The notes beneath the pieces are model-generated. The model had not been told where the DNA came from and searched no databases. It saw nothing but the letters and a program-made list of their open reading frames with translations. A stretch of DNA of 64,000 nucleotides from Rhizobium sp. ASV20 (GTDB lineage: Bacteria > Pseudomonadota > Alphaproteobacteria > Rhizobiales > Rhizobiaceae). The stretch is taken from assembly GCF_016429015.1 (NCBI RefSeq), contig NZ_JAELTU010000023.1:1-64000 (forward strand), in the 5' to 3' direction. Of the stretch, positions 1 through 12,055 are shown piece after piece. Position 1 is the stretch's first letter. Each line of letters starts with the position of its first letter. A program made the translations under genes and the position numbers.

Positions 1-910
1 CATGGCCGGGCTGCCCGTTTCCGCTCGCATAAATGCCCGCCTGCACCGGCCCGCCGGCGATCCAACGGGCAAAGGCCTTCGCCTCTTCGGGAGCCTGCGT
101 TCGTGCCGAAACGGCAATGCCCGTACCGCCCAGAGCCGAACCATTCGGCGCGCGGCCATCGATAGCGGGCATATCGGCAAAGGCGATCCGAGCGAGCCTG
201 AATCCGGCAAAGGAATAATTCACGTAGCCGTAGATGAAGGGCGACGCCACATAGGGGCTGTCGGGCTTGCCCATCAGGTCGAGCACGGCAATCGGATCCA
301 TCTCGTAGCAGCTGCTATCCATCCCAGAGACAAGCCGTGCCATCCAGTCGAGCACCACTTCGCCATCGGCCTTCGCGATGAAGTCGGGACCTTCGATGCT
401 ACAGGGCGCACCGAGATGCGCGGCAAGCGTGATGAAGGTCATCAACGAGTGCGGCGGTCGCATCGGCAGGATCGTTTTGCCTTCCTTGGCGAGCGTTACA
501 AACTCTGCGAGATCCTTGACCGGCGCGCTCAGGCGATCGGGCCGGTATGCCTGCACCTGGGTTGCCGCATCGAGCGGAAACGCCCACTGGCGTCCCTGCC
601 AATTGTAGCTCGGATAGGAGCGCCCGACAGTGCCGGCTGCAATCGCCGCAACTTCATCGGCATGAGCAGCATCATCGAGCGGCAACAGGCAGTCTTCACG
701 CGTGATCTGGCCGACATGCGGGTGATCGATGACGATGAGATCGTATTGCGCGGCAAGTTCCTCCACCGGAAAGGTCTCGAAATCCTGCAGCGACCGCTTC
801 TCCCAGCCGATCTCGACGCCGGTCTTTTCCTGCCATTGCTTCGAGCAGGCGATCATCGGATCGTAGCCGCGCGGATGCGACCAGGTCATTCCCTTAAGCT
901 TCACTATCAT
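1..910 (-). CDS. ABC-type solute-binding-protein-like protein without signal peptide (partial, runs off left edge)
   Basis: An open frame of 302 codons begins at ATG (910) and is still open at base 1. The protein resembles family-1 extracellular solute-binding proteins: it has a DLIVIDHP segment near residue 57, a [10 protein letters not shown] stretch near 108, and an [13 protein letters not shown] segment near the cut end. Family members are exported, but this one starts [19 protein letters not shown] and has no hydrophobic signal segment. The upstream MaoC-like gene ends with TGA overlapping this ATG (ATGA), so the two are translationally coupled. It is the last visible gene of the leftward sugar operon. 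Either it is a cytosolic sugar- or ligand-binding relative, or its start has been lost. I infer the former because the coupling fixes the start. Confidence 0.8.
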
Positions 911-1368
911 GCCTTCTCCGTACCGGCCTTGCGCTCGACAATCAGGATATGATCGGCAGCGAGCACGACTTCATCGCGCTGGTTCAGCACCTCACAGCGT
1001 TCGACAACGCGACCGGCTGCCGGTCGCTTCGGATCATCCTCTTTCGCCGAAATGGTGACGCGCGTGCGGATCGTATCGCCGATATGCACCGGGCGGACGA
1101 AACGAAGCCGATCGTAACCATAGGAAAAGGCGACGGGATTGATGAGCGAAGCCGTGAGCCCGACGCCGATCGCAAAGATCATCGTCCCATGCGCGATGCG
1201 CTGGCCGCCGGGCAAGGTCTTGGCGAATTCCGCATCCATGTGATGCGGGAAGAAATCGCCGGTATGGCCGGCGTGTACAACGAAATCTGTCTCGGTGATC
1301 GTCCGTCCCGTGGTCACTCTGACATGACCGAGTTCATAGCCTTCGAAATAGATGATTTGCTCTGCCAT
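907..1368 (-). CDS. MaoC family dehydratase-like protein, catalytic dyad intact
   Basis: This 153-residue single hot-dog-fold protein carries the hydratase-2 signature around residues 37-45 (GDFFPHHMD). Asp38 and His43 are spaced as in (R)-enoyl-CoA hydratases, and a conserved [11 protein letters not shown] strand lies near residue 84. Such enzymes add or remove water on acyl-CoA thioesters in the cytosol. It lies four bases after the oxidoreductase stop and overlaps the next gene by ATGA. A related protein is encoded on the other arm of the locus (10345-10890), which suggests the two act in one pathway, perhaps as a heteromer. The substrate is unknown. CoA chemistry is not a usual part of sugar-acid degradation. 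Confidence 0.88.
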
Positions 1369-1371
1369 TCC

Positions 1372-2445
1372 TCAAGCCTCTGGAAGTTCTGCAATCGGCG
1401 TCGCAGGCGCGGCGCTCGACCGATAGGCGGCCTCGACGAGGGCCATGGTCTGCCAGGCGTCCTCGACGGAGCCAACCAGTTCCTGATCCTCGCCGGATGC
1501 GAAGCGCTGCAGGTTGGCCATGCGGTTGACGAAGGCGTCCGGGAACCAGGCGCCCTCGAGCTTCACCTCGACCCAATCGCTGCCACCCTCGGGGCGGATC
1601 CACAACTCGTCCGGCTCACCGCGCGGATAATCAAGATTGACGCCGAGCTTGATGTAGGCCGCGCCCTTGGTGCCTGATATGCGAAACTCGCAGGCCTGGA
1701 ACTTGCGGCCGAAATCATGGTCGTGATTGACCGAGAGCATGCAGCGGACCTTGTCGCCATAATCGAGGATTGCCGCCGTCCGCGTCTGCGCGACGTCATG
1801 ATTGGGATGGCCGATGGTCTTGGCGTGGACGCCTTGCGGATTGCCGAGCAGTCCGCGAATGAAATCGAGATAGTGGATCGAGTGCATGGCGATCTCGATC
1901 CGCGGCAGTCCTTTCAGGAAGGGCCACAGACCCCAGGGCGTGGCGAGCGCCAGCCATGCATCGAAATCGACGACATCTCCGAGATAGCCCGTGTTCACGG
2001 CATCGTAGAGCGCCAGCATCATCGGTGCGAAGCGGAGCTGGAAATTGACCGCCGCCTTGATGTCACGCTCGCGGCAGACCCGCAAAATTTCGGAGGCGCC
2101 TGTGAGGTCGCTGCCCATGGGTTTCTGGATCAGCGCGAAGGAACCACACGGCAATTTCGACAGGATCGTGGCATGCGCCGCCGGCGGCGTCGCCAGATCG
2201 AAAATAGCACCTTCTATGGCAAGCGCTTCTGCCTCGGAGGCGAAAGTACGGATGCCCCATTGAGCGGCAAGCGCTGCCGCTTTCTCAGCATTCGGATCGT
2301 AAAGACCGGCGACCGGAAAGCCGCCTTGCCTGTATGCCGGCAAATGCGCGTCACCGACGATGCTGCCGGCGCCGAAGATCACGATCGGACGCGGCTTCGA
2401 CGGCTTCGGCCACCATTGACGGAGGGATTTGGGATCGAAACTCAT
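1372..2445 (-). CDS. Gfo/Idh/MocA family NAD(P)-dependent oxidoreductase
   Basis: A protein of 357 residues with an N-terminal Rossmann fold (GAGSIVGDAHLPAY, about residue 22) and the family Lys motif in the form QKPM near residue 107, where most members have EKP. An MHSIHYLDF His motif follows near 188, and a C-terminal alpha/beta domain completes the fold. Relatives oxidise sugars, inositols or sugar derivatives with NAD or NADP. The frame stays open upstream to 2616, but that part lies inside a palindromic repeat. ATG 2445 has GGAGG five bases upstream and a normal family N-terminus. In this operon it is the natural candidate for the first sugar-oxidation step giving a lactone. Substrate not determinable from sequence. 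Confidence 0.9.
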   Translation of the reverse strand: MSFDPKSLRQWWPKPSKPRPIVIFGAGSIVGDAHLPAYRQGGFPVAGLYDPNAEKAAALAAQWGIRTFASEAEALAIEGAIFDLATPPAAHATILSKLPCGSFALIQKPMGSDLTGASEILRVCRERDIKAAVNFQLRFAPMMLALYDAVNTGYLGDVVDFDAWLALATPWGLWPFLKGLPRIEIAMHSIHYLDFIRGLLGNPQGVHAKTIGHPNHDVAQTRTAAILDYGDKVRCMLSVNHDHDFGRKFQACEFRISGTKGAAYIKLGVNLDYPRGEPDELWIRPEGGSDWVEVKLEGAWFPDAFVNRMANLQRFASGEDQELVGSVEDAWQTMALVEAAYRSSAAPATPIAELPEA

Positions 2446-2448
2446 TGC

Positions 2449-2606
2449 ACCCTCCCCTTGAGGGGGAGGGTCGGACCGAAGGTCCGGGGTGGGGTGATCC
2501 CTCCTCGTGCAAAAACAGCAGCGTTGCGCGCCGGGAGCATCACCCCCACCCGCGCATTCCGCACGACCTCCCCCCTCAAGGGGGAGGTAATCGCTTCGCG
2601 GTCTGA
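2449..2606. repeat. RIME-like palindromic mosaic repeat
   Basis: Two GC-rich palindromic arms flank a short core. The left arm contains CCCTCCCCTTGAGGGGGAGG, followed by a GGTCCGGGGTGGGGTGAT block. The right arm begins ATCACCCCCACCCGCG and ends CCTCCCCCCTCAAGGGGGAG. The arms are inverted relative to each other, so the whole unit can fold into a long hairpin. This is the form of the rhizobial intergenic mosaic elements (RIME) and similar MITE-like repeats in alphaproteobacteria. It separates the mutarotase and oxidoreductase genes inside one operon. On the minus strand its edge (AAGGGGAGGG) provides the Shine-Dalgarno of the oxidoreductase gene. Confidence 0.8.
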
Positions 2607-2619
2607 CCCACTCCAATCT

Positions 2620-2949
2620 CTAATCATGATGAAACACCTCCTCCATCATGGCCCACCACTCGCCCTCCCTGCGGGTCTCGAGCGGCTTCTGGCAGGGTAT
2701 GCAGACGGACCACCATTCCTGGTTTTTCGGGCTGGCAGCCATCTTGCGCATGTCGGCCTCGAAATCGGTTCCGATATATTCCCAATAGCCGAAGAGCAGG
2801 TTTTCCGGCTCCTTCAGGAAGATCGAATAGTTGGTGATGTTGCATTCGGATATCAGCGCCAGGATCTCGGGCCAGACGGCCGCGTGAAGCGCCTTGTATT
2901 CCGCGATCTTGGCCGGCTCCAGGCCGATTACCATTCCCATCCGTTGCAT
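2620..2949 (-). CDS. L-rhamnose/L-fucose mutarotase family protein (COG3254)
   Basis: A 109-residue dimeric ferredoxin-like alpha/beta-barrel family that interconverts alpha and beta anomers of 6-deoxyhexoses. The family N-terminus (MQRMGMVIGLEPAKIAEY), the LHAAVWP segment with its conserved His near residue 22, the NYSIFL strand and the MEEVFHHD C-terminus are all present. ATG 2949 was chosen because GAGGAGG lies eight bases upstream and family members start here. A start ten codons earlier is possible but less likely. The gene lies 13 bases after the enolase-family gene. COG3254 members pair with COG3618 lactonases and enolase-type dehydratases in L-fucose oxidation, which fits this locus. 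Confidence 0.9.
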   Translation of the reverse strand: MQRMGMVIGLEPAKIAEYKALHAAVWPEILALISECNITNYSIFLKEPENLLFGYWEYIGTDFEADMRKMAASPKNQEWWSVCIPCQKPLETRREGEWWAMMEEVFHHD

Positions 2950-2962
2950 AGCCCGTTCCTCC

Positions 2963-4075
2963 TCAGCCGTGAATTTCACGGGTGAACTCGCCGATGGAGC
3001 GAGCCTTTACGGCCTCCCAATCCCAGGCGATGCCGATGCCGGGTTCCGAAGGAGCGAGCGCCTTGCCGTCGACGATTTCCATCCCCTTCGTGGTGAGATC
3101 GTCGAGCTGCGGGATGTATTCGACATATTTGCCGTTCGGTACCGCGCAGGTGAGGCTGACATGCAGCTCCATCAGGAAGTGCGGGCAGACCGGAATATCG
3201 AAGGCCTCGGCAGCATGCGCCACCTTCAGCCAGGGGGTGATGCCGCCGATGCGGGCAACATCCACCTGCACGATCGAGCAGGCCCCCTTCTGCATATATT
3301 CGCGGAAATGCCGGATCGAATACATGGATTCTCCAACCGCGATCGGCGTCGGCGTCGATCGTGTCAACCGGATATGGCCATCGAGATCATCAGCCGGCAG
3401 CGGCTCTTCGATCCAGGCAAGATCCAGCTCCTTCAGGCGCGCCGCCCGGCGGATCGCCTCATCGACGGTAAAGCCCTGATTGCAGTCGGTCATGATCTCG
3501 AAACCGGACCCGAGCGCCAGACGCATCGCGGCCAAACGATCGTAATCTTCCGAGCCATGCGGCTTGCCGATCTTCACCTTCGAGCCGGAAAAGCCCTTGG
3601 CCTTCGCCTGCAAGGCGTCCTCGACCAAGGCTTCCTTTTCGATATGCAGCCAGCCGCCCTCTGTGGTGTAGAGCGGGCAACGATCCCTAGCGCCGCCGGC
3701 AAGCTTCCAGAGCGGCAGGTTCTGCTTCTTCGCCCGCAGGTCCCAAAGTGCGGTGTCGACCGCCGCAAGGGCCAGCGCCGTGATAGGCCCGATGGTCGTC
3801 GCATGTGTGGCGAATTCCAGCTTATGCCAGATCGCCTCGATGCGATCGGCATCCTCACCGATCAAAAGCGGCACCAGATGGTCGGAGAGCAACCGCATGA
3901 CGGAGGAACCGCCGGTACCGATCGTGTAGCTGTAACCGGTGCCGACAGCGCCGTCGCTGTCGGTGATGGTGACGATCGGCGTCTCCTGGCTGACGAAGCT
4001 CTGGATAGCATCCGTCCGCTTCACCTTCGGCGGCAGATCGACCATCCGCAATTCAATTTTCTCGATACGTGCCAT
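2963..4075 (-). CDS. Mandelate racemase/muconate lactonizing enzyme family protein (acid-sugar dehydratase-like)
   Basis: A 370-residue enolase-superfamily enzyme. An N-terminal capping domain is followed by a TIM barrel with Lys166-x-Lys168 (KVKIG), metal ligands Asp197 (TDCNQG), Glu223 (WIEEP) and Glu249 (VGES), and the Asp272/His299 dyad (VDVARIGG, CPHF). This is the mandelate-racemase subgroup, which includes dehydratases of galactonate, rhamnonate, fuconate and tartrate. These abstract the proton alpha to the carboxylate and give 2-keto-3-deoxy acids. AAGGA lies nine bases before the ATG. Neighbours on both sides are sugar-operon genes. The specific acid sugar cannot be named from sequence alone. 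Confidence 0.92.
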   Translation of the reverse strand: MARIEKIELRMVDLPPKVKRTDAIQSFVSQETPIVTITDSDGAVGTGYSYTIGTGGSSVMRLLSDHLVPLLIGEDADRIEAIWHKLEFATHATTIGPITALALAAVDTALWDLRAKKQNLPLWKLAGGARDRCPLYTTEGGWLHIEKEALVEDALQAKAKGFSGSKVKIGKPHGSEDYDRLAAMRLALGSGFEIMTDCNQGFTVDEAIRRAARLKELDLAWIEEPLPADDLDGHIRLTRSTPTPIAVGESMYSIRHFREYMQKGACSIVQVDVARIGGITPWLKVAHAAEAFDIPVCPHFLMELHVSLTCAVPNGKYVEYIPQLDDLTTKGMEIVDGKALAPSEPGIGIAWDWEAVKARSIGEFTREIHG

Positions 4076-4087
4076 AGGGCTTATTCC

Positions 4088-5185
4088 TTAGATTGCCAGG
4101 CTCTTGCCGGTTTCGACGGAGAAGAGGTGTGCCTGACTAAGGTCGAAGCTCATCTTCAGCTGTTCGCCGCTCTTCAGAGAGCGCGGATTGAGCATGCGCG
4201 ACACCCATTCGCGCCCTGCGAACTCGACGAACACAAGCGTTTCGTTGCCGAGCGGTTCGGTGATGGCAACAGGCAATGTCAGTTCGTACACGGCAGACTC
4301 CGCTCCCGAATGCAGGCCATGTCCGGTCGGGAAGATGTCATCGGGCCTCAGGCCGAAGGCAACCTTTTCGCCTTCCTTGACCTTGCCGGCAAATTGGCCC
4401 GGCAGTGGCAGACGGTCACCATTCTTGAAAACCAGTTCGCCCGCCTTCAGCGTCGCCTCCTCGATATTCATCGGCGGCGAGCCGATGAAGCCGGCGACGA
4501 AGCGTGTGGCAGGGCGCTTGAACACTTCATCCGGCGTACCGACCTGCTCAATATAACCATCGCGCATGATGACGATGCGGTCGGCCAGCGTCATGGCTTC
4601 GACCTGATCGTGGGTGACGTAGACAACCGTCGACTGCACCTTGGCGTGCAGCTTCTTGATCTCGGTGCGCATCTGCGTGCGCAGCTTGGCATCGAGGTTC
4701 GACAAGGGTTCGTCGAAGAGGAAGACTTCGGGCTGGCGGACGATGGCGCGCCCCATGGCGACGCGCTGGCGCTGACCGCCGGAAAGCTGCGCGGGGCGAC
4801 GGTCCATGAGAGCTTCGAGGCTGAGAATGGCGGCGGCCTCGTTGACGCGCTTGTCGATCTCCGCCTGCGGCTGCTTGGCGATCTTTAGCGAGAAGCCCAT
4901 GTTCTCGCGCACCGTCATATGCGGATAGAGCGCATAGGACTGGAACACCATGGAGATGTTGCGGTCACGCGGCGGCAGATTGTTGACGACGGTGTCGCCG
5001 ATCTCGATCGTGCCGCCCGATACCTCCTCCAGGCCGGCAATCATGCGCAGCGTCGTCGACTTGCCGCAGCCGGACGGGCCGACGAGTGCGATGAACTCCT
5101 TGTCGGCGATATCGAGATCGATGCCGTGGACGATTTCCAGAGCGCCGTAGCGCTTGACGAGTTTTTTAAGAGAAACCTGAGCCAT
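4088..5185 (-). CDS. Sugar ABC transporter ATP-binding protein (MalK/UgpC type)
   Basis: A 365-residue ATPase energising the two permeases encoded just upstream. Walker [10 protein letters not shown] is near residue 37, the Q-loop [12 protein letters not shown] near 80, the signature LSGGQRQR near 135, and Walker [13 protein letters not shown] near 155. The H-loop [11 protein letters not shown] is followed by a C-terminal OB/TOBE domain typical of CUT1 carbohydrate importers. The gene follows the second permease by six bases and precedes the dehydratase by 12. It is 365 residues long, as is usual for MalK-type proteins. The substrate should be the sugar degraded by the operon. Confidence 0.95.
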   Translation of the reverse strand: MAQVSLKKLVKRYGALEIVHGIDLDIADKEFIALVGPSGCGKSTTLRMIAGLEEVSGGTIEIGDTVVNNLPPRDRNISMVFQSYALYPHMTVRENMGFSLKIAKQPQAEIDKRVNEAAAILSLEALMDRRPAQLSGGQRQRVAMGRAIVRQPEVFLFDEPLSNLDAKLRTQMRTEIKKLHAKVQSTVVYVTHDQVEAMTLADRIVIMRDGYIEQVGTPDEVFKRPATRFVAGFIGSPPMNIEEATLKAGELVFKNGDRLPLPGQFAGKVKEGEKVAFGLRPDDIFPTGHGLHSGAESAVYELTLPVAITEPLGNETLVFVEFAGREWVSRMLNPRSLKSGEQLKMSFDLSQAHLFSVETGKSLAI

Positions 5186-5191
5186 GAGGGA

Positions 5192-6067
5192 TCAACCTTT
5201 GACCGCACCGAATGTCAGACCCGACACCAGATGCTTCTGAATGATGAAAGTGAGAGCGAGCGCCGGAACGATCATCACGACCGCGAGTGCGCACATGCCA
5301 CGCCAGTCGATGGTGAACTCGGAGGTATAGTCGAGCAAGCCGACCGGCAGCGTCTTCGAATCGACCGAGCGCGTCAGCTGCGAGGCCAATGCATATTCGT
5401 TCCAGCAGGTGAGGAAGGCGAAGATGCCGGCAGACGCGATGCCTGGACCGGCAAGAGGAAACTCCACCTGCCAGAAGGCCTGCCAGCGCGTGCAACCATC
5501 GATCTGAGCGGCTTCTGCGAGATCCTTCGGCACCTGCCGGAAGAAGCCGTCGATCAGCCAGATCGTAAAGGGCACGTTGAGCGCGACATAGGTGAGGATC
5601 AGGCCGAAATGCGTGTCGATGATCCCGAGCCGCGCATAGACCATGAACAGCGGCAGCGACAGGGCAACACCGGGCACGGAGCGCGTCAGCATGAGCCCTA
5701 AAAACACGGTCGACTTGCCGCGGAAACGGAACCGGGCGAAGGCATAACCGCCGGACATGCCTATAATGAGCGCGATGGCGGTCGAAGTGATCGAGATGAT
5801 CAGCGAATTGCGGAAGTAATCCCAGACGGGAATGCCGCCCTGCCCCACACCGCTGAACATGGAGCGATAGGCTTCGAGCGAAAGCTCCTGCGGGATCCAG
5901 ACCGGCGGCTTTGCCATGATCTCCACGGTCGGCCTGAGCGAGCTGATGATGATCCAGAGGCCCGGCAGGCAGATGATGAGCATCGCGATGAAAAGGCCGA
6001 TGAGATAGGCGACCTTCCAGAGGCGGCGCTGCAGGCGTTGTTGAGCATTGCGATCCATGATTACCAC
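5192..6067 (-). CDS. Carbohydrate ABC transporter permease (MalG-like)
   Basis: An inner-membrane permease of about 291 residues with six hydrophobic segments, the first near residues 20-45. The cytoplasmic EAA loop EAAQIDGCTRWQAFWQVEFP docks on the ATPase. The family C-terminus GLTFGAVKG is present. GTG 6067 has GGAG four bases upstream and overlaps the preceding permease gene. ATG 6058, three codons later and two bases after that gene's TAA, is an alternative start. Together with the gene at 6061-6954 it forms the transmembrane pair of a CUT1-type importer. Confidence 0.93.
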   Translation of the reverse strand: MVIMDRNAQQRLQRRLWKVAYLIGLFIAMLIICLPGLWIIISSLRPTVEIMAKPPVWIPQELSLEAYRSMFSGVGQGGIPVWDYFRNSLIISITSTAIALIIGMSGGYAFARFRFRGKSTVFLGLMLTRSVPGVALSLPLFMVYARLGIIDTHFGLILTYVALNVPFTIWLIDGFFRQVPKDLAEAAQIDGCTRWQAFWQVEFPLAGPGIASAGIFAFLTCWNEYALASQLTRSVDSKTLPVGLLDYTSEFTIDWRGMCALAVVMIVPALALTFIIQKHLVSGLTFGAVKG

Positions 6068-6954
6068 TCTGCTCCGATCTGGGTACGCGCAAGCGCCAGC
6101 TTACGGAAGAAATAGACTGTGAAGGCGATGGAAAGAATGATCGAGACATAGGCCATGGCGTTGGCAAGCCCCATCTGCGCATCGGCATAGGCGGTGCGTC
6201 CGACCAGCGTCCAGATCAGCTCTGTGCGCCGCGCTGGCCCGCCATCCGTCATGATCTTGACGATGTCGTAAGCGCGGGCGACGTCGAGCGAGCGGATCGT
6301 CATGGCGATGAAGGCAAAGGGCATCAGGAACGGCCAGGTGACGTAGCGGAAGGTCTGCCAGCTGGTGCAGCCATCGACCTTGGCGGCCTCGACCGGCTCT
6401 TGCGGCATGGCGAAGAGGCCAGCCAGAATGAGAATGGCAAAGACCGATGTCGATGACCAGATTTCCGCGACGATGATCGAAAACAGCGCCAGATTGCCGT
6501 CGATGAGCCACGGTATGGCATCATTGGTAATGCCCAGGGATTGCAGTGCGTTGTTGATGATGCCGACATTGTCGTTGAACATGAATTTGAACTGGAAGCC
6601 GACAAGCACAGGCGAAAACATCATCGGGAACATCATGAGCGTGCGTAGCACGCGCTTGCCGTGGGTCGCCTTGTTGACCAGGAGAGCCAATCCAAGACCA
6701 AGCAGCATTTCCAGATTGAGCGCGATCGTCAGCAGCACGACTGTGCGCACGAAAGCAGCCAGAAACACCGGGTCGCTGAGGATGCGAATGTAATTGCGCA
6801 GCCCGATGAAGGTGAAAAGCGTCGCCGGCTTTGTCAGGCGAAACGGCGTGAAACTGGAATAAAACGAGAGAAGCAGCGGAAACAGCACCACCGCGACAAG
6901 GACGATAATCGCCGGCAGAAGAAGCAGGACCGGTGGGGATATCTTTTTGAACAT
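6061..6954 (-). CDS. Carbohydrate ABC transporter permease (MalF-like)
   Basis: A 297-residue inner-membrane protein starting MFKKISPPVLLLLPAI. It has six predicted membrane segments and an EAA loop with the motif EAAKVDGCTSWQTFRYVTWP near residue 190. ATG 6954 was chosen over an upstream in-frame ATG (7047) because AGGTG lies seven bases before it and the first hydrophobic segment then begins at the N-terminus as in relatives. The stop overlaps the next permease start. A gap of 167 bases with a stem-loop separates it from the binding-protein gene, which implies lower expression than that gene. Confidence 0.92.
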   Translation of the reverse strand: MFKKISPPVLLLLPAIIVLVAVVLFPLLLSFYSSFTPFRLTKPATLFTFIGLRNYIRILSDPVFLAAFVRTVVLLTIALNLEMLLGLGLALLVNKATHGKRVLRTLMMFPMMFSPVLVGFQFKFMFNDNVGIINNALQSLGITNDAIPWLIDGNLALFSIIVAEIWSSTSVFAILILAGLFAMPQEPVEAAKVDGCTSWQTFRYVTWPFLMPFAFIAMTIRSLDVARAYDIVKIMTDGGPARRTELIWTLVGRTAYADAQMGLANAMAYVSIILSIAFTVYFFRKLALARTQIGAEW

Positions 6955-7080
6955 GGTTTGCACCTGTCGGCATTCCTCGGCAGCATGGCCCGGACTGCTT
7001 GGAATGAATTGCGTGAGGACGAGAATACGGCTCAAATGCGGTGGCACCGATCAAAAGCCATTCCCGAAGTCAGATTGCGG

Positions 7081-7109
7081 AAGTCCCGCGCATTTCAGGC
7101 GCGGGACTT
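7081..7109 (-). terminator. Intercistronic stem-loop downstream of binding-protein gene
   Basis: A perfect 11-bp stem (AAGTCCCGCGC / GCGCGGGACTT) with a 7-base loop lies 13 bases beyond the stop of the solute-binding-protein gene. There is no U-tract on the minus strand, so it is probably a messenger-stabilising or partial-attenuation hairpin, not a full terminator. Such hairpins are common after the first gene of ABC importer operons, where the binding protein is needed in excess over the membrane parts. Confidence 0.6.
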
Positions 7110-7121
7110 TAATTGCATCGC

Positions 7122-8438
7122 TTAGAGCGCGCCGGCATCCTTCAGGACATCGGTTGCCTTCTGGGCAGCGGCATCGAGCGCCTGCTTCGAGGTTTTGTCG
7201 CCGAGAATAGCAGCCTGAAGCTCCGGATAGACGACATTAGAGATTTCGATCCATTGCGGCGTGCGCGGAACCGGGAAGGCGTACTTCATCGATTCCTGGA
7301 AGGTGCTCAGCACTTCCTTCTTGTATGGGTCGGAAGCAGCCTGCTGGATATCCCAGTCCCAGACGGCCTTGCGGGTCGGCAGGGTGCCGTTCGCAGCTTC
7401 GAGCTTCTGCGAGTCGTCGTTGGTCAGGAACCAGACGAGGGAAGCGGCCGCATCCTTATGAGCGCAGGCTTCGGTGACCGAGAAACCATGATGGCCGGAC
7501 CAGCCGGTGTGCTTGCCGGAGGAGCCGACAGGCTGCACGACGACGCCGACATTGCCAGCGACCTTCGAGGACTTCGGATCGTTGAAATAGGTCGCCCAGC
7601 CCGGCCAGTCGAGATCGAGCGCGATCGAGCCGGAAGCAAAGCCGGCGCCGAGGTCGTCCCACAGATAGTTGGTCGTGCCGGCCGGAACGGCCTTGGCCTT
7701 GTACATGTTGACGAACCAGTCGAGCGCACGCACGCCGGCTTCGGAGTTGAAGGCAGGCTTGCCGTCTTTGTCGAGATACTCGCCGCCTTCCGCGACCAGC
7801 ATTTCAAAGAAGCGACCGTTGATCGCCTCTTCCTTGCCTGGGAACTGCGTGCCGAAGAAGTTCGGCGGGTTGGAGAAGAAGATCGCCTGATCGGAGACTT
7901 CCTTCCAGGTCTTCGGCGGCGCCAGATCGTAGCCATACTTCGCCTTGAAGGCCGTCTTCTTGGCTTCGTCGTTATAGAGGCTCTTCTGATAATAGAGCGC
8001 CGAGACGTCGAACTGGGCGCGCGGCAGCATGATCAGGCGGCCGTCGATGGTCGAGGCCTGAATGGTGGAATCGACGAACTGGGCAATCTCTTCCTTTGGC
8101 AGCAGCTTCGACAGATCGGTGTAAAGATCCGGGTACTGCGGCGCGAAGGACGAGTGGTTCGAGCCCACGCACCAGGAAATGCTGCCCGATGCCATGTCGG
8201 ACTTGATTTCCTTGTCGAGCTCGAAGTGGTTCTTCTTGGACAGGATGTTGACCTTGGCGCCGGTTGCCTTCTCCCACTCGCCAATGCGCGCATAAAGTGG
8301 CTCATATTGCTGACCGCCGATGAGCTTCGCATCGATCGTCACGCCCGAAAACTTGCCCGGCAGATCGGCAGCGAAGACCGAGGTGCCCGCAAGCAATGCC
8401 ATCATGCCGGCAGCGAGACCGGCCCTCCAATTCCTCAT
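7122..8438 (-). CDS. Sugar ABC transporter extracellular solute-binding protein
   Basis: A protein of 438 residues with a clear signal peptide (MRNWRAGLAAGMMALLAGTSVFAAD, cleavage near residue 24) and the bilobed family-1 binding-protein fold. An IGEWEKATGAKVNIL segment lies near the start and YNDEAKKTAFKAKYG near residue 155, with a WDDLGAGFASGSIALDLDWPGW stretch in the second lobe. GGGAGG stands seven bases before ATG 8438. It is the first gene of the leftward operon and faces the IclR regulator gene across 181 bases of promoter DNA. The exported protein should capture the substrate in the periplasm. The ligand is unknown. Confidence 0.93.
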   Translation of the reverse strand: MRNWRAGLAAGMMALLAGTSVFAADLPGKFSGVTIDAKLIGGQQYEPLYARIGEWEKATGAKVNILSKKNHFELDKEIKSDMASGSISWCVGSNHSSFAPQYPDLYTDLSKLLPKEEIAQFVDSTIQASTIDGRLIMLPRAQFDVSALYYQKSLYNDEAKKTAFKAKYGYDLAPPKTWKEVSDQAIFFSNPPNFFGTQFPGKEEAINGRFFEMLVAEGGEYLDKDGKPAFNSEAGVRALDWFVNMYKAKAVPAGTTNYLWDDLGAGFASGSIALDLDWPGWATYFNDPKSSKVAGNVGVVVQPVGSSGKHTGWSGHHGFSVTEACAHKDAAASLVWFLTNDDSQKLEAANGTLPTRKAVWDWDIQQAASDPYKKEVLSTFQESMKYAFPVPRTPQWIEISNVVYPELQAAILGDKTSKQALDAAAQKATDVLKDAGAL

Positions 8439-8568
8439 CGAAATTCCTCCCATTAAGATCGGACCTCTTGTCCGATCGCCCTCTCGACCCAAATATGGAT
8501 CAATGATTTATAAGTAAACATCTTGTTCATTGGTCGTCAAGCCGAGATCGCATGCTTGAAAACTACGT

Positions 8569-8594: not shown

Positions 8595-8619
8595 ATTTCT
8601 TCGCGTGGGGGGCTAGTTG

Positions 8620-9411
8620 ATGAGTTTGGAAGATGACAGTGATCGCTATCGCGCGCCGGCCCTGGACAAGGGGCTCGACATATTGGAGCTGCTCGCCACG
8701 ATCGATGGCGGGCTGACACAGGCGGAAATCGCCAAGGCGCTCAACAAGAGCCCCAACGAATTCTATCGCATGCTCGATCGGCTGGTGCGGCGCGGCTACG
8801 TGCAGCGGCAGGATGGCGACCGCTTCTATCTGACGCTGAAGCTGTTCGGGCTTGCGCATTATCACGCGCCGGTGCGCCGCCTCGTCTCCTTCGCAACACC
8901 GCTGATGCGGGAGTTCGCCAACCTTGCCGAGCAGGCCTGTCATCTGGCGATTTACGATCGCGGCTCGGTCGTCGTCATCGCCCAGCAGGATTCACCGACC
9001 TATTGGGGCATTTCGATCCGCGTCGGCGCTCAGATCAATCTCTACAATACCGGCTCCGGTCACATTCTGCTGGCATTCCGGGATGCGAAGCAGCGCCTGA
9101 TGATGATCAACGAGCAAAGACGCCAGGAGCAGGACCCGGAAGAACCGCCTGCCGATCTCGAAGAGAAGCTGCTGGCCATCCGCGACAAGGGCTTCGAGAC
9201 CATGAACAGCCTGCAGACGAGCGGTGTTTACAATATCTCTGCTCCCGTGCTGGCGATGGACGGCAATGCATTGGCCGCCCTCACCTGCCCCTATATCGAG
9301 CCCGTAAACCCGAAGGCGCCCACCCGCGAACAGGTGGTCGAATATGTGCGGGAAGCGGCCAAGCAGATCTCCGAAACCGTGGCCGGCACAGTGGACAAGG
9401 CCGAGCTGTAA
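8620..9411 (+). CDS. IclR family transcriptional regulator
   Basis: A 263-residue regulator. An N-terminal winged helix-turn-helix (about residues 12-70; GLTQAEIAKALNKSPNEFYRMLDRL) is followed by an IclR effector-binding domain with a SGHILLAF motif near residue 145 and a C-terminal NISAPVLAMDG strand. ATG 8620 follows a GGGGGGC stretch, and a TTG one codon earlier is possible. It starts the rightward operon with the amidohydrolase, MaoC-like and CoA-transferase genes and faces the sugar-importer operon. It therefore probably senses a pathway intermediate and controls both arms through the palindrome at 8569-8594. Confidence 0.93.
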   Translation: MSLEDDSDRYRAPALDKGLDILELLATIDGGLTQAEIAKALNKSPNEFYRMLDRLVRRGYVQRQDGDRFYLTLKLFGLAHYHAPVRRLVSFATPLMREFANLAEQACHLAIYDRGSVVVIAQQDSPTYWGISIRVGAQINLYNTGSGHILLAFRDAKQRLMMINEQRRQEQDPEEPPADLEEKLLAIRDKGFETMNSLQTSGVYNISAPVLAMDGNALAALTCPYIEPVNPKAPTREQVVEYVREAAKQISETVAGTVDKAEL

Positions 9412-9476: not shown

Positions 9477-10313
9477 ATGCTTTTCGACAGCCATTTGCAC
9501 ATCGTCGACCGGAAACGCCTCGCCTATCCCTGGCTGGCTGAAGCCGGCGCGCTCAACCGCGATAGTCTCTACGAGGACTATGCCCGCGAAGCCAAGCGGC
9601 TTGGAATAACCGACACGCTTCACATGGAGGTCGATGTCGCCGAAGACGATGTCGAGCGCGAGACGGATTACGTCAAAGAATTGAGCCGCCAGCCCGGCAG
9701 CCTCCTGCGTGGCGCCATTGCCGCCTGCCGTCCTGAGAGCACAAGCTTCCCTGCCTATCTTGAGCGCGTGCTCGCAGACCCCTTCGTCAAAGGCTTTCGC
9801 CGGGTGCTGCATGTCGTGCCGGATGAAGTCTCCGAGGGTGCGCTGTTTCGCGAAAACCTGAAAAGGCTTGCCGATACGCGCCTTACCTTCGATCTGTGCG
9901 TCCTGCCGCATCAGATAGCCAAGACGATTGCACTCATCGACCTCAATCCCAACGTCCAATTCATCCTCGATCATTGCGGCGTCCCCGCAGTGAAGGATGG
10001 CCTCAGCGAAAATTGGTCGTCCGGCATAAAGGAAGTTGCCAAGCGTCCGAATGTCATCGTCAAAATATCAGGCGTCGTTGCCTATGCCGATCCGGACAAC
10101 TGGTCGCCGGAAACGCTGCGGCCTTTCGTCGAACATTGCATCGGCGGCTTCGGCTGGGATCGCGTCATCTGGGGCAGCGATTGGCCTGTCTGCACGCTCG
10201 GCGGCAATCTTTCCACCTGGGTCGCCGCCACCCATGCGCTGATGCAAGGCGTAAGTGCCGACGAACGCAACAGGCTCTATCACCTCAATGCCAAGCGCCT
10301 CTGGTCTCTCTGA
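9477..10313 (+). CDS. Amidohydrolase family protein (COG3618, sugar-lactonase-like)
   Basis: A 278-residue TIM-barrel metal-dependent hydrolase. The metal motif is DSHLH (Asp4, His6, His8), with KGFRRV at 105-110, His166 (LDHCG) and Asp235 (WGSDWP). COG3618 includes L-fucono- and L-rhamnono-lactonases and 2-pyrone-4,6-dicarboxylate hydrolase. Next to a dehydrogenase and an acid-sugar dehydratase, a lactonase role is the most economical reading. The ATG is preceded by GGGAGG with six-base spacing. It lies 65 bases after the IclR gene in the same direction. Substrate identity is inferred from context only. Confidence 0.88.
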
Positions 10314-10344
10314 GACCGGAGGTTTTCCATCGAAAGACACTGCC

Positions 10345-10890
10345 ATGACCGCCACCGTCGGCGTATCCAGCACCCATCCGAAAACCATGCCTGCCGATCA
10401 CGCCGAAATCCCCGTCTGGAACGCGGAAAACTGGTTCTACGAGGATTTCGAGATCGGCCATAAGATCCGCTCGCTGCGCCGCACGATCTCCGAGGGCGAG
10501 TCGCAACAGTTCAATGCGCTGGTGCTCGACATGCACCCTTACGTCAGCGATCAGATTTTCGCAGAAACCGAGGGGCTGTTCGGCAAGCGGCTCGTGGCCG
10601 GCGCCTTCGTCTTTTCCGCCGGCCTGGGTCTTGTCGCCACCAATTGCGTCAACGCCTTTTCCTATGGTTACGACAAGCTGCGTTTCATCAAGCCGACCTT
10701 CATCGGCGAGACGATCTACACCATTCGCACCAATCTGGATAAGCAGCCGAAATATGCCGAACTCGGCCTGATCCGCTCATCTTACGAAGTCTTCAAGGGC
10801 GAAGGCGAACTGGTGCTCTATTGCGAGCATATCCAGACCGTGCGCTACAAGAACGGCCGGCCTGCGGATGCGCCGCCGCTGAAAGTCTGA
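10345..10890 (+). CDS. MaoC-like hot-dog protein with degenerate catalytic motif
   Basis: A 181-residue protein related to the MaoC-like product of 907-1368. Both share an [11 protein letters not shown]-type strand and similar length and order of segments. The hydratase motif is altered: Asp62 is kept (LDMHPYVSD), but the position of the catalytic His is Val67. It may therefore be a non-catalytic partner or a thioester-binding protein, or it may use another residue such as His64. ATG 10345 is the first start after the amidohydrolase stop, with GAAAGA upstream. ATG 10387 is an alternative. One base separates it from the CoA-transferase gene, so the two are cotranscribed. Confidence 0.85.
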
Positions 10891-10891
10891 C

Positions 10892-12055
10892 ATGAACACG
10901 GACAATGACGAAGGCCTGCTCTCCGGCATCATCGTGCTGGATATGAGCCAGTTTCTTGCCGGCCCGATGGCGGCGTTGCGGCTCGGCGATCTCGGCGCGC
11001 GCGTCATCAAGATCGAGCGGCCCGATGGCGGCGATCTCTGCCGTCGGCTCTATCTCAGCGACACCGAAATCGGCGGTGATTCCACCCTCTTTCATGCCAT
11101 CAACCGCGGCAAGGAGAGCTTTGCCATCAACATGAAGGACGAGAGCGACCTGCAGGAGCTGCGCGCTCTGATCGCCAAGGCCGATGTCGTCATCCAGAAT
11201 TTCCGTCCCGGCGTCATCGAAAGGCTGGGTCTCGACTACGCCTCCGTGGCCGCGATCAATCCCCGCATCGTCTATGGCAGCATCACCGGCTACGGCCCCG
11301 ACAACGAATGGCGGCACTTCCCCGGACAGGATCTGCTGGCCCAGGCGCGCTCCGGTGTCATGTGGCTGAATGGCGAGGCCGATGACGGCCCCGTGCCCTT
11401 CGGCCTTGCCGTCGCCGACATGCTGGCCGGCAATCTCCTCGTTCAAGCCATACTCGCCGGGCTGGTGCGGCGTGGCGTGACCGGACGCGGCGTGCATGTG
11501 GAAACGAGCCTGCTGGAAGCACTGGTCGATTTCCAGTTCGAAGTGCTGACCACGCATCTCAACGACGGCGGCCGCCTGCCGAAGAAATCCGCCGTGCGCA
11601 ATGCCCACGCCTATCTCGCCGCCCCCTACGGCGTCTATCGCTGCGCCGATAGCTGGCTGGCGCTCGCCATGATGCCGCTGGAAAAACTCGCGCCGCTGCT
11701 CGATCTGCAAGCGCTCGCCGACTACACGCCTGATGACGCCTTTCAGCGCCGCGACGAGATCAAGACCATGATCGCAAGCCGGCTGCAGGAAAAGACGGTT
11801 CGGGAATGGCTCGCCATCCTGGAGCCTGCCGATATCTGGGCGGCAGAAGTGCTCGATTGGCCAAAATTGCTGCAAAGCGCGGCCTTCCGCCAGCTCGACA
11901 TGCTGCAGACGGTGAGCCGCGACGACGGAACATCCGTGCGGACGACGGCAAGCCCGATCCGGGTCAATGGCATCCGTGCCAAGAACGGATTGGCGGCGCC
12001 GACGATTGGCGGCCAGTCGGACAAGGTCAGGGCGGAATTTATTGGCGATCGGTAG
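10892..12055 (+). CDS. CaiB/BaiF family CoA-transferase
   Basis: A 387-residue class III CoA-transferase. The N-terminal VLDMSQFLAGPMAALRLGDLGARVIKIERPDGGD CoA-binding region is present (residues 15-48). Asp147 (FPGQDLLAQARSG) matches the Asp that forms the anhydride intermediate in formyl-CoA transferase, and a linker domain follows. These enzymes move CoA between carboxylic acids in the cytosol. It ends the rightward operon and stands tail-to-tail with transaldolase. With two MaoC-like proteins at the same locus it implies that the pathway passes through an acyl-CoA stage. Donor and acceptor acids are not predictable. Confidence 0.92.
   Translation: MNTDNDEGLLSGIIVLDMSQFLAGPMAALRLGDLGARVIKIERPDGGDLCRRLYLSDTEIGGDSTLFHAINRGKESFAINMKDESDLQELRALIAKADVVIQNFRPGVIERLGLDYASVAAINPRIVYGSITGYGPDNEWRHFPGQDLLAQARSGVMWLNGEADDGPVPFGLAVADMLAGNLLVQAILAGLVRRGVTGRGVHVETSLLEALVDFQFEVLTTHLNDGGRLPKKSAVRNAHAYLAAPYGVYRCADSWLALAMMPLEKLAPLLDLQALADYTPDDAFQRRDEIKTMIASRLQEKTVREWLAILEPADIWAAEVLDWPKLLQSAAFRQLDMLQTVSRDDGTSVRTTASPIRVNGIRAKNGLAAPTIGGQSDKVRAEFIGDR

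Follow-up and report, generated by a model that had tools for sequence, protein, structure and literature searches.

Why should a sugar-catabolic operon carry a second gene of the solute-binding protein (SBP) fold, devoid of any export signal, next to an ABC importer that has its own exported binding protein? The question is posed by the first gene of the window, by which we mean the whole stretch of 64,000 nucleotides from Rhizobium sp. ASV20 analyzed here. This leaderless gene (2..910, minus strand) appears there as an open reading frame for 303 of about 377 amino acids, open at the contig edge: the first base of contig C309 is base 1 of the window, and the gene is cut at that point. The C-terminal remainder, 74 residues, is encoded on contig C139 (locus L002), where 127 bases are identical to the start of the window and an SDR dehydrogenase gene adjoins the gene remainder. 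Joined, the two parts give a full-length protein of 377 residues, the same as in close relatives.

The start of the gene was taken by an earlier note on this DNA to be set by a stop/start overlap, and the reading frames agree. The initiating ATG lies in an ATGA at 907..910 (minus strand) that overlaps the stop of the upstream MaoC gene, and a 20-codon upstream extension of the window copy contains no in-frame ATG, GTG or TTG. An overlap of 4 bases with the upstream open reading frame is present in 71 of 116 family copies. The absence of an export signal, also claimed from this single copy, proved general. Each of the 116 copies, representing 116 distinct loci and distinct proteins, was scored by its most hydrophobic 12-residue stretch within the first 35 residues, at the likely start and at every in-frame start within 80 codons, with the exported binding proteins encoded at these loci as controls. 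The family maximum is 1.61, so that none of the 116 is export-like, against at least 1.78 in all 74 controls, a narrow gap across which the dividing line of 1.7 was drawn after the data had been seen. The top family value is due to an alanine-rich first helix at locus L109. By eye, the upstream in-frame regions of 25 homologues from relatives' genomes likewise contain no leader. The comparison of N-termini that the earlier note had proposed thus yielded, among 116 scored and 25 inspected homologues, none with a signal peptide encoded further upstream, the one observation that it had named as fatal to its claim. A hidden upstream signal peptide was ruled out by the lack of a hydrophobic N-terminus at any scored start, and a local, one-off loss by the spread of leaderless copies across three bacterial phyla: at the level of sequence, the leaderless state is a cross-phylum trait of the family.

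These observations weigh on the most conventional account, that the protein is an ordinary exported SBP whose signal peptide lies upstream, was recently lost, or is replaced by some other export route. In its favor, the annotated records examined label the gene as an extracellular solute-binding protein, a carbohydrate ABC transporter protein or an ABC transporter substrate-binding protein. Against it stand the 116 copies, whose N-terminus is not hydrophobic at any of the in-frame starts within 80 codons, the window copy with no upstream start, a leaderless start that is strongly conserved, and an operon that encodes an exported binding protein of its own. The conventional account is hardly credible on these grounds, and the leaderless protein in all likelihood resides in the cytoplasm.

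The fold itself, assigned earlier as that of a binding protein, is supported from two sides. The window protein matches the Pfam profile SBP_bac_8 (E=1.8e-15, 57.9 bits against a cut-off of 27), and an AlphaFold (AF2) model matches MalE-type proteins over its full length. The model is of a relative that shares 91% identity with the part encoded in the window and was aligned with 53 other sequences; its mean pLDDT is 92.9 and its pTM 0.91, with lower confidence (mean 73) in the conserved N-terminal loop at residues 11-20. SBP_bac_8 reaches E<=1e-3 in 53 of the 54 members of alignment A2; for the distant Streptomyces copy, Pfam gave no match. The top structural match among 1000 chains is the trehalose/maltose-binding protein 1eu8_A (Z 36.3, rmsd 2.9, 366 residues, 19% identity); maltose-, alpha-glycoside- and sulfoquinovosyl-binding proteins follow within 1 Z unit, and LpqY comes next at 35.2. 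The first strand of the model comprises residues 4-9, and translation therefore starts at the point that corresponds to the N-terminus of a mature exported SBP. The family thus shares the two-lobed fold over its full length, and the Pfam families SBP_bac_8 and SBP_bac_1, with the MalE-type cluster B/D SBPs 1eu8, LpqY and SmoF. It differs from them in lacking a signal peptide, in an identity of 11-19% across the listed structural matches, and in its conserved WxHxRG and DHP motifs and linkage to a CaiB-type CoA-transferase. The SBP fold occurs outside transport, partly in the cytoplasm, in cyclohexadienyl dehydratase, Thi5/NMT1 and MqnA/MqnD, which belong to other Pfam families; the first of these we take as the named precedent for an enzyme derived from an SBP. 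Profiles for NMT1/THI5, MqnA/D and cyclohexadienyl dehydratase found no match in our protein, and SBP_bac_8 and SBP_bac_1 alone reached E<=1e-3.

Conservation is concentrated in a few motifs. The pattern G[MLIV]TWxHxRG is found at the first strand or near the N-terminus in 105 of 116 copies, the other 11 carrying near variants such as ALTWDHPRG, GMTWSDPRG and GLAWDHRRC, and the DHP motif is present in 115 of 116, the Microvirga copy having DYP. Invariance over 22 members extends to 34 columns, including W10, H12, R14, D62, H63, P64 and D114; this alignment includes the truncated copy of the window, and identity to its first row is 36-93% for 20 of the 21 other members and 29% for the last. Many of the invariant polar residues (W10, H12, R14, H63 and D114) are expected at loops facing the cleft. 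In a sequence alignment, D62 and R333, the latter nearly invariant, correspond to positions 69 and 363 of 1eu8, presumably the trehalose contacts Asp70 and Arg364. Where 1eu8 has an Asp and a Trp, which we take to be Asp123 and Trp295, the leaderless protein has Ala116 and Thr263, and because of these two replacements the ancestral sugar site looks remodelled. The dN/dS ratios to three relatives (0.05, 0.09 and 0.14) show that the gene is under purifying selection.

Near-invariant polar residues across diverse members, together with a remodelled sugar site, are what one would look for in a stand-alone enzyme evolved from an SBP, which might isomerize, dehydrate or hydrolyze a sugar acid or lactone and merely share a pathway with the CaiB-type enzyme. 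SBP-derived enzymes have a precedent, as far as the part of PMC7683729 consulted goes. Two points tell against such an enzyme: no catalytic motif was recognized in the leaderless protein, and fucose-type clusters already have dehydrogenase, lactonase and dehydratase genes.

Directly upstream of the leaderless gene in the window, on the minus strand, lies MaoC-like hydratase 1 (907..1368; PF01575, E=3.5e-21), whose GDFFPHHMD region retains the Asp and His of the hydratase motif, which we read as the catalytic motif of R-specific hydratases. Then come, on the same strand, a Gfo/Idh/MocA-type dehydrogenase gene (1372..2445; a profile match, its start picked by eye), a gene of the L-rhamnose mutarotase family, RhaM (2620..2979; profile match, E=3.8e-34), and an enolase-superfamily gene resembling sugar-acid dehydratases (2963..4075; a profile match under all NCBIfam equivalog cut-offs). 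The interval at 2446..2610, between the Gfo/Idh and RhaM genes, is G+C-rich with inverted repeats apparent by eye, and in our view resembles rhizobial intergenic mosaic elements. A whole CUT1-type ABC importer, recognized from its translations, occupies 4088..8492 of the minus strand, with the ATPase at 4088..5185, the permeases at 5192..6067 and 6061..7047, and the binding protein at 7122..8492. The last has a hydrophobic, exported-looking N-terminus, MRNWRAGLAAGMMALLAGTSVFAADLPGK, so the earlier statement that the operon has a normal exported binding protein holds. The importer genes are annotated in the same order in S. meliloti and are 76-86% identical in S. meliloti 1021. SMc02774 is, according to the part of PMC3454389 available to us, another transporter of S. 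meliloti. The exported binding protein at 7122..8492 matches nothing in Pfam at E<=1e-3; a weak NCBIfam match is to GanS (27.8 bits), and its counterparts in relatives are labelled sugar ABC transporter binding proteins.

On the plus strand, a divergent IclR-family regulator gene (8617..9411; profile match) is followed by a fuconolactonase-like gene of the amidohydrolase 2 family (9477..10313; 95 bits against an NCBIfam cut-off of 400), MaoC-like protein 2 (10255..10890; profile match) and a class III (CaiB-type) CoA-transferase, hereafter CaiB (10892..12055). MaoC 2 has a Val in LDMHPYVSD where the hydratase His is expected, which we place at the catalytic His position of R-specific hydratases; MaoC 1 and MaoC 2 might form one heterodimer. 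The CaiB gene shares PF02515 with formyl-CoA transferase, CaiB itself and succinyl-CoA:mesaconate CoA-transferase, and falls far under every listed NCBIfam equivalog cut-off; the whole genome holds only 6 CoA_transf_3 matches.

Taken together, the cluster looks like a non-phosphorylating operon for a 6-deoxy sugar of the fucose or rhamnose type. The L-fucose route of this kind (route 3) calls for a mutarotase, a dehydrogenase, a lactonase, a dehydratase, a 4-dehydrogenase and a hydrolase. Most of these have family-level matches in the cluster, although none of the window genes is above an equivalog cut-off, and no FAH-type hydrolase was recognized in the first 14 kb of the window. In four relatives the operon extends to genes that carry the label L-fuconate dehydratase or fumarylacetoacetate hydrolase family. 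The non-phosphorylating L-fucose pathway described in PMC11199699, to the extent of the text accessible to us, runs FucM-FucA-FucB-FucC-FucF-FucG. Its likeness to the window lies in the mutarotase-, lactonase- and dehydratase-like genes and the SDR around the leaderless gene; unlike the window, its scheme has no place for MaoC, CaiB or the leaderless protein, and in the main text of that paper the string 'CoA' occurs 0 times. That the leaderless protein is a cytosolic SBP relative within a sugar pathway, as the earlier note had suspected, accordingly fits both its N-terminus and its company, its cytoplasmic location being deduced from the former. It is probably a cytoplasmic player in sugar breakdown, from a family so far unstudied, and very likely acts in catabolism rather than transport.

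How far does this arrangement extend? Copies of the gene occur in Alpha- and Betaproteobacteria, Streptomyces and Persicobacter (Bacteroidota). The 116 loci are not independent, being mostly from Hyphomicrobiales and including two from S. meliloti; also among them are Caballeronia, Paraburkholderia, Skermanella, Streptomyces (L156), Persicobacter (L157), Microvirga (L158) and strains of the Roseobacter group. Judged by the leaderless protein, Rhizobium tropici, R. lusitanum and R. hainanense provide the closest named strains among the matches listed. Taking one genome per species, a scan returned at least 476 relatives among at least 596 candidate stretches, with 80 kept. An even draw from the phylum gave matches in 18 of 398 genomes, the window's own included, and 145 of 72,556 plasmid records contain one. 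In S. meliloti 1021 the leaderless gene and CaiB form a pair on pSymB.

Across this range it is CaiB that recurs beside the leaderless gene. In 92 of the 116 loci the two are same-strand neighbors no more than 400 bases apart, and in 100 they lie no more than 10 kb apart. MaoC or crotonase genes are present in 109 of 116, a count taken without a background control. Other genes of the same loci are seldom next to CaiB: the exported binding protein in 2 of 75 cases, the two permeases in 0 of 81 and 0 of 83, the ATPase in 0 of 95, IclR in 1 of 96, Gfo/Idh in 2 of 69, the SDR in 5 of 64 and MaoC 1 in 5 of 65. The exceptions are MaoC 2 (51 of 66) and, to a lesser degree, crotonase (7 of 16). The recurring unit is therefore CaiB plus the leaderless gene plus a hydratase-type gene, and since MaoC 2 is about equally often next to CaiB, adjacency does not by itself mark the leaderless protein as the partner of CaiB. 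The coupling to MaoC 1 proposed earlier stands for the window, where the ATGA overlap is real, but does not carry over to the family: as a general partner MaoC 1 was rejected, since in 92 of 116 loci the gene next door is CaiB and a crotonase may take the place of MaoC as the hydratase.

CaiB was not seen in the fetched DNA of the remaining 16 loci. Twelve of these (L028-L036 and L038-L040) are of the R. tropici type, and their fetched stretches end at MaoC 2, exactly where, in the window, CaiB follows; in the R. tropici-type lineage that includes the window, CaiB belongs to the same cluster and does not adjoin the leaderless gene. L046 is a short contig. At L043, L114 and L158 no CaiB is present near the leaderless gene in the fetched DNA, which for L114 and L158, two divergent loci, covers 9-10 kb on each side; the neighbors of these two are instead SMP-30, SDR, FAH or UxuA/ManD genes. 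In the Microvirga locus (L158:7940-11173, plus strand) the second of two mannonate-dehydratase-like genes, a member of the UxuA family, shares 4 bases with the leaderless gene, and CaiB is not within reach. These two loci without CaiB, with their lactonase-, SDR- and dehydratase-type genes, again speak for a stand-alone enzyme, which we nevertheless consider improbable, if worth keeping in mind. As they suggest a role of its own for the leaderless protein, our confidence that it shares a step or a complex with CaiB, a reading drawn from gene adjacency, is held a little below an even chance.

With thresholds of E<=1e-20 for the family and E<=1e-70 for CaiBs close to that of the window, 61 genomes divide into 20 with both, 2 with the family only, 1 with CaiB only and 38 with neither (Fisher P = 7e-13); within the genus the corresponding numbers are 17, 1, 1 and 18 (P = 2e-8). 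These genomes are related to one another, and part of the signal is linkage, because the two genes often share one cluster. The genome with CaiB only (G003) is 82% complete. Of the two with the family only, G028 has no CaiB at E<=1e-70, and in G049 a CaiB of a more distant group adjoins the leaderless gene (L109). Distance matrices of the leaderless family correlate best with those of CaiB among nine families (r 0.891), followed by SDR (0.874), PermG (0.863) and SBP (0.861); CaiB comes first but not distinctly, and this mirror-tree signal was set aside as evidence of pairing. In a CaiB tree of 58 rows, where 34 of 91 adjacent CaiBs were kept after thinning and long branches limit the reading, adjacent CaiBs need 7 label changes against a shuffled mean of 18.7. 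They cluster without forming one clade, and some are found in each of three deep groups. The window's own genome has a second CaiB on contig C64 (L204:7217-9704, minus strand), 63% identical to the first and without a leaderless gene; it adjoins an enolase-superfamily gene that is, over the available part, 81% identical to a labelled L-fuconate dehydratase, and the same pair recurs in L205-L208. In the tree, this second CaiB falls among CaiBs paired with a leaderless gene, in a group of five with a support of only 69.

The family loci lie mostly in or near sugar-oxidation clusters, and the surroundings of the pair vary. The leaderless gene and CaiB stay together across CUT1, CUT2/Rbs, TRAP, MFS and RhaT transporters, and they stay while the regulator (IclR or LacI) and the hydratase (MaoC or crotonase) vary. 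Many Rhizobiales have a CUT1 importer with RhaM, Gfo/Idh, MaoC and SDR genes. L154 and L161 have an Rbs-type importer, a sugar isomerase, an aldose epimerase and a crotonase; the Streptomyces locus L156 has MFS and LacI genes, with CaiB 2.6 kb off; the Persicobacter locus L157 has RhaT, two CaiB genes and an alpha-L-fucosidase; and L152 has IclR, two CaiB genes, a crotonase, an aldehyde dehydrogenase and a gene that is GH2-like by eye. At some loci, for example L067, the leaderless gene and CaiB stand alone among the gene types searched. This variability bears on the possibility of a cytoplasmic sensor or regulator which, bound to its ligand, would modulate CaiB, the hydratase or the IclR repressor. 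A binding fold with no recognized catalytic signature and the presence of IclR in many loci would suit a sensor, yet the leaderless gene stays when the regulator type switches, and many of its residues are common to clusters that apparently serve different sugars, a constancy for which a sugar-specific sensor would have no need. We regard a sensor as quite unlikely; residues kept across such clusters suggest instead one common type of ligand or chemistry.

The reading that we favor, at no better than even chances, is that of a former SBP that lost its export signal and, in the cytoplasm, acts with a CoA-transferase in non-phosphorylating breakdown of sugar acids. The protein would hold a sugar-derived acid, or a CoA ester thereof, in its two-lobed cleft, and would serve as a substrate-presenting partner of the class III CoA-transferase or act on the adjoining step; the product would then pass to a MaoC or crotonase-type hydratase.

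A second SBP family shows the same peculiarity. Matching SBP_bac_1 (84.5 bits for the L157 copy), it is leaderless in all five copies, L157:13445-14677, L142:14984-16165 and L143:15767-16930 on the plus strand and L051:13330-14514 and L075:13399-14535 on the minus strand; these five are the matches, out of 67, that align from near the N-terminus. BLAST similarity to the first family is not significant (E 0.013 and 0.15). Two or more CaiB-type genes are present at each of the five loci, and in L100, L148 and L152, with two such genes each, no second-family copy is found in the fetched DNA. Conceivably, leaderless SBPs and class III CoA-transferases form a novel kind of two-component enzyme, which would open a CoA-dependent branch of sugar oxidation, and the second family would be the same solution reached twice. 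In the cytoplasm, the SBP would enclose a polyhydroxylated sugar acid and offer it for CoA transfer. This bolder proposal strikes us as rather doubtful.

We know of no class III CoA-transferase with a binding-protein partner. In the open-access papers searched, partly represented by titles and the beginnings of abstracts, no description of a leaderless binding protein paired with CaiB was found; the portion of PMC9007349 at hand lacks the terms 'MaoC', 'CoA transferase', 'rhamnose' and 'meliloti'. The SBP fold has apparently moved into the cytoplasm here, a move with precedents among SBP-fold enzymes, but with a CaiB partner that is unreported. Hundreds of genomes seem to carry the gene, and its transport labels would misdirect metabolic reconstruction. 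If the protein does work with the CoA-transferase, current schemes of fucose- and rhamnose-type oxidation miss a CoA step, and the SBP fold gains an unreported role in the cytoplasm.
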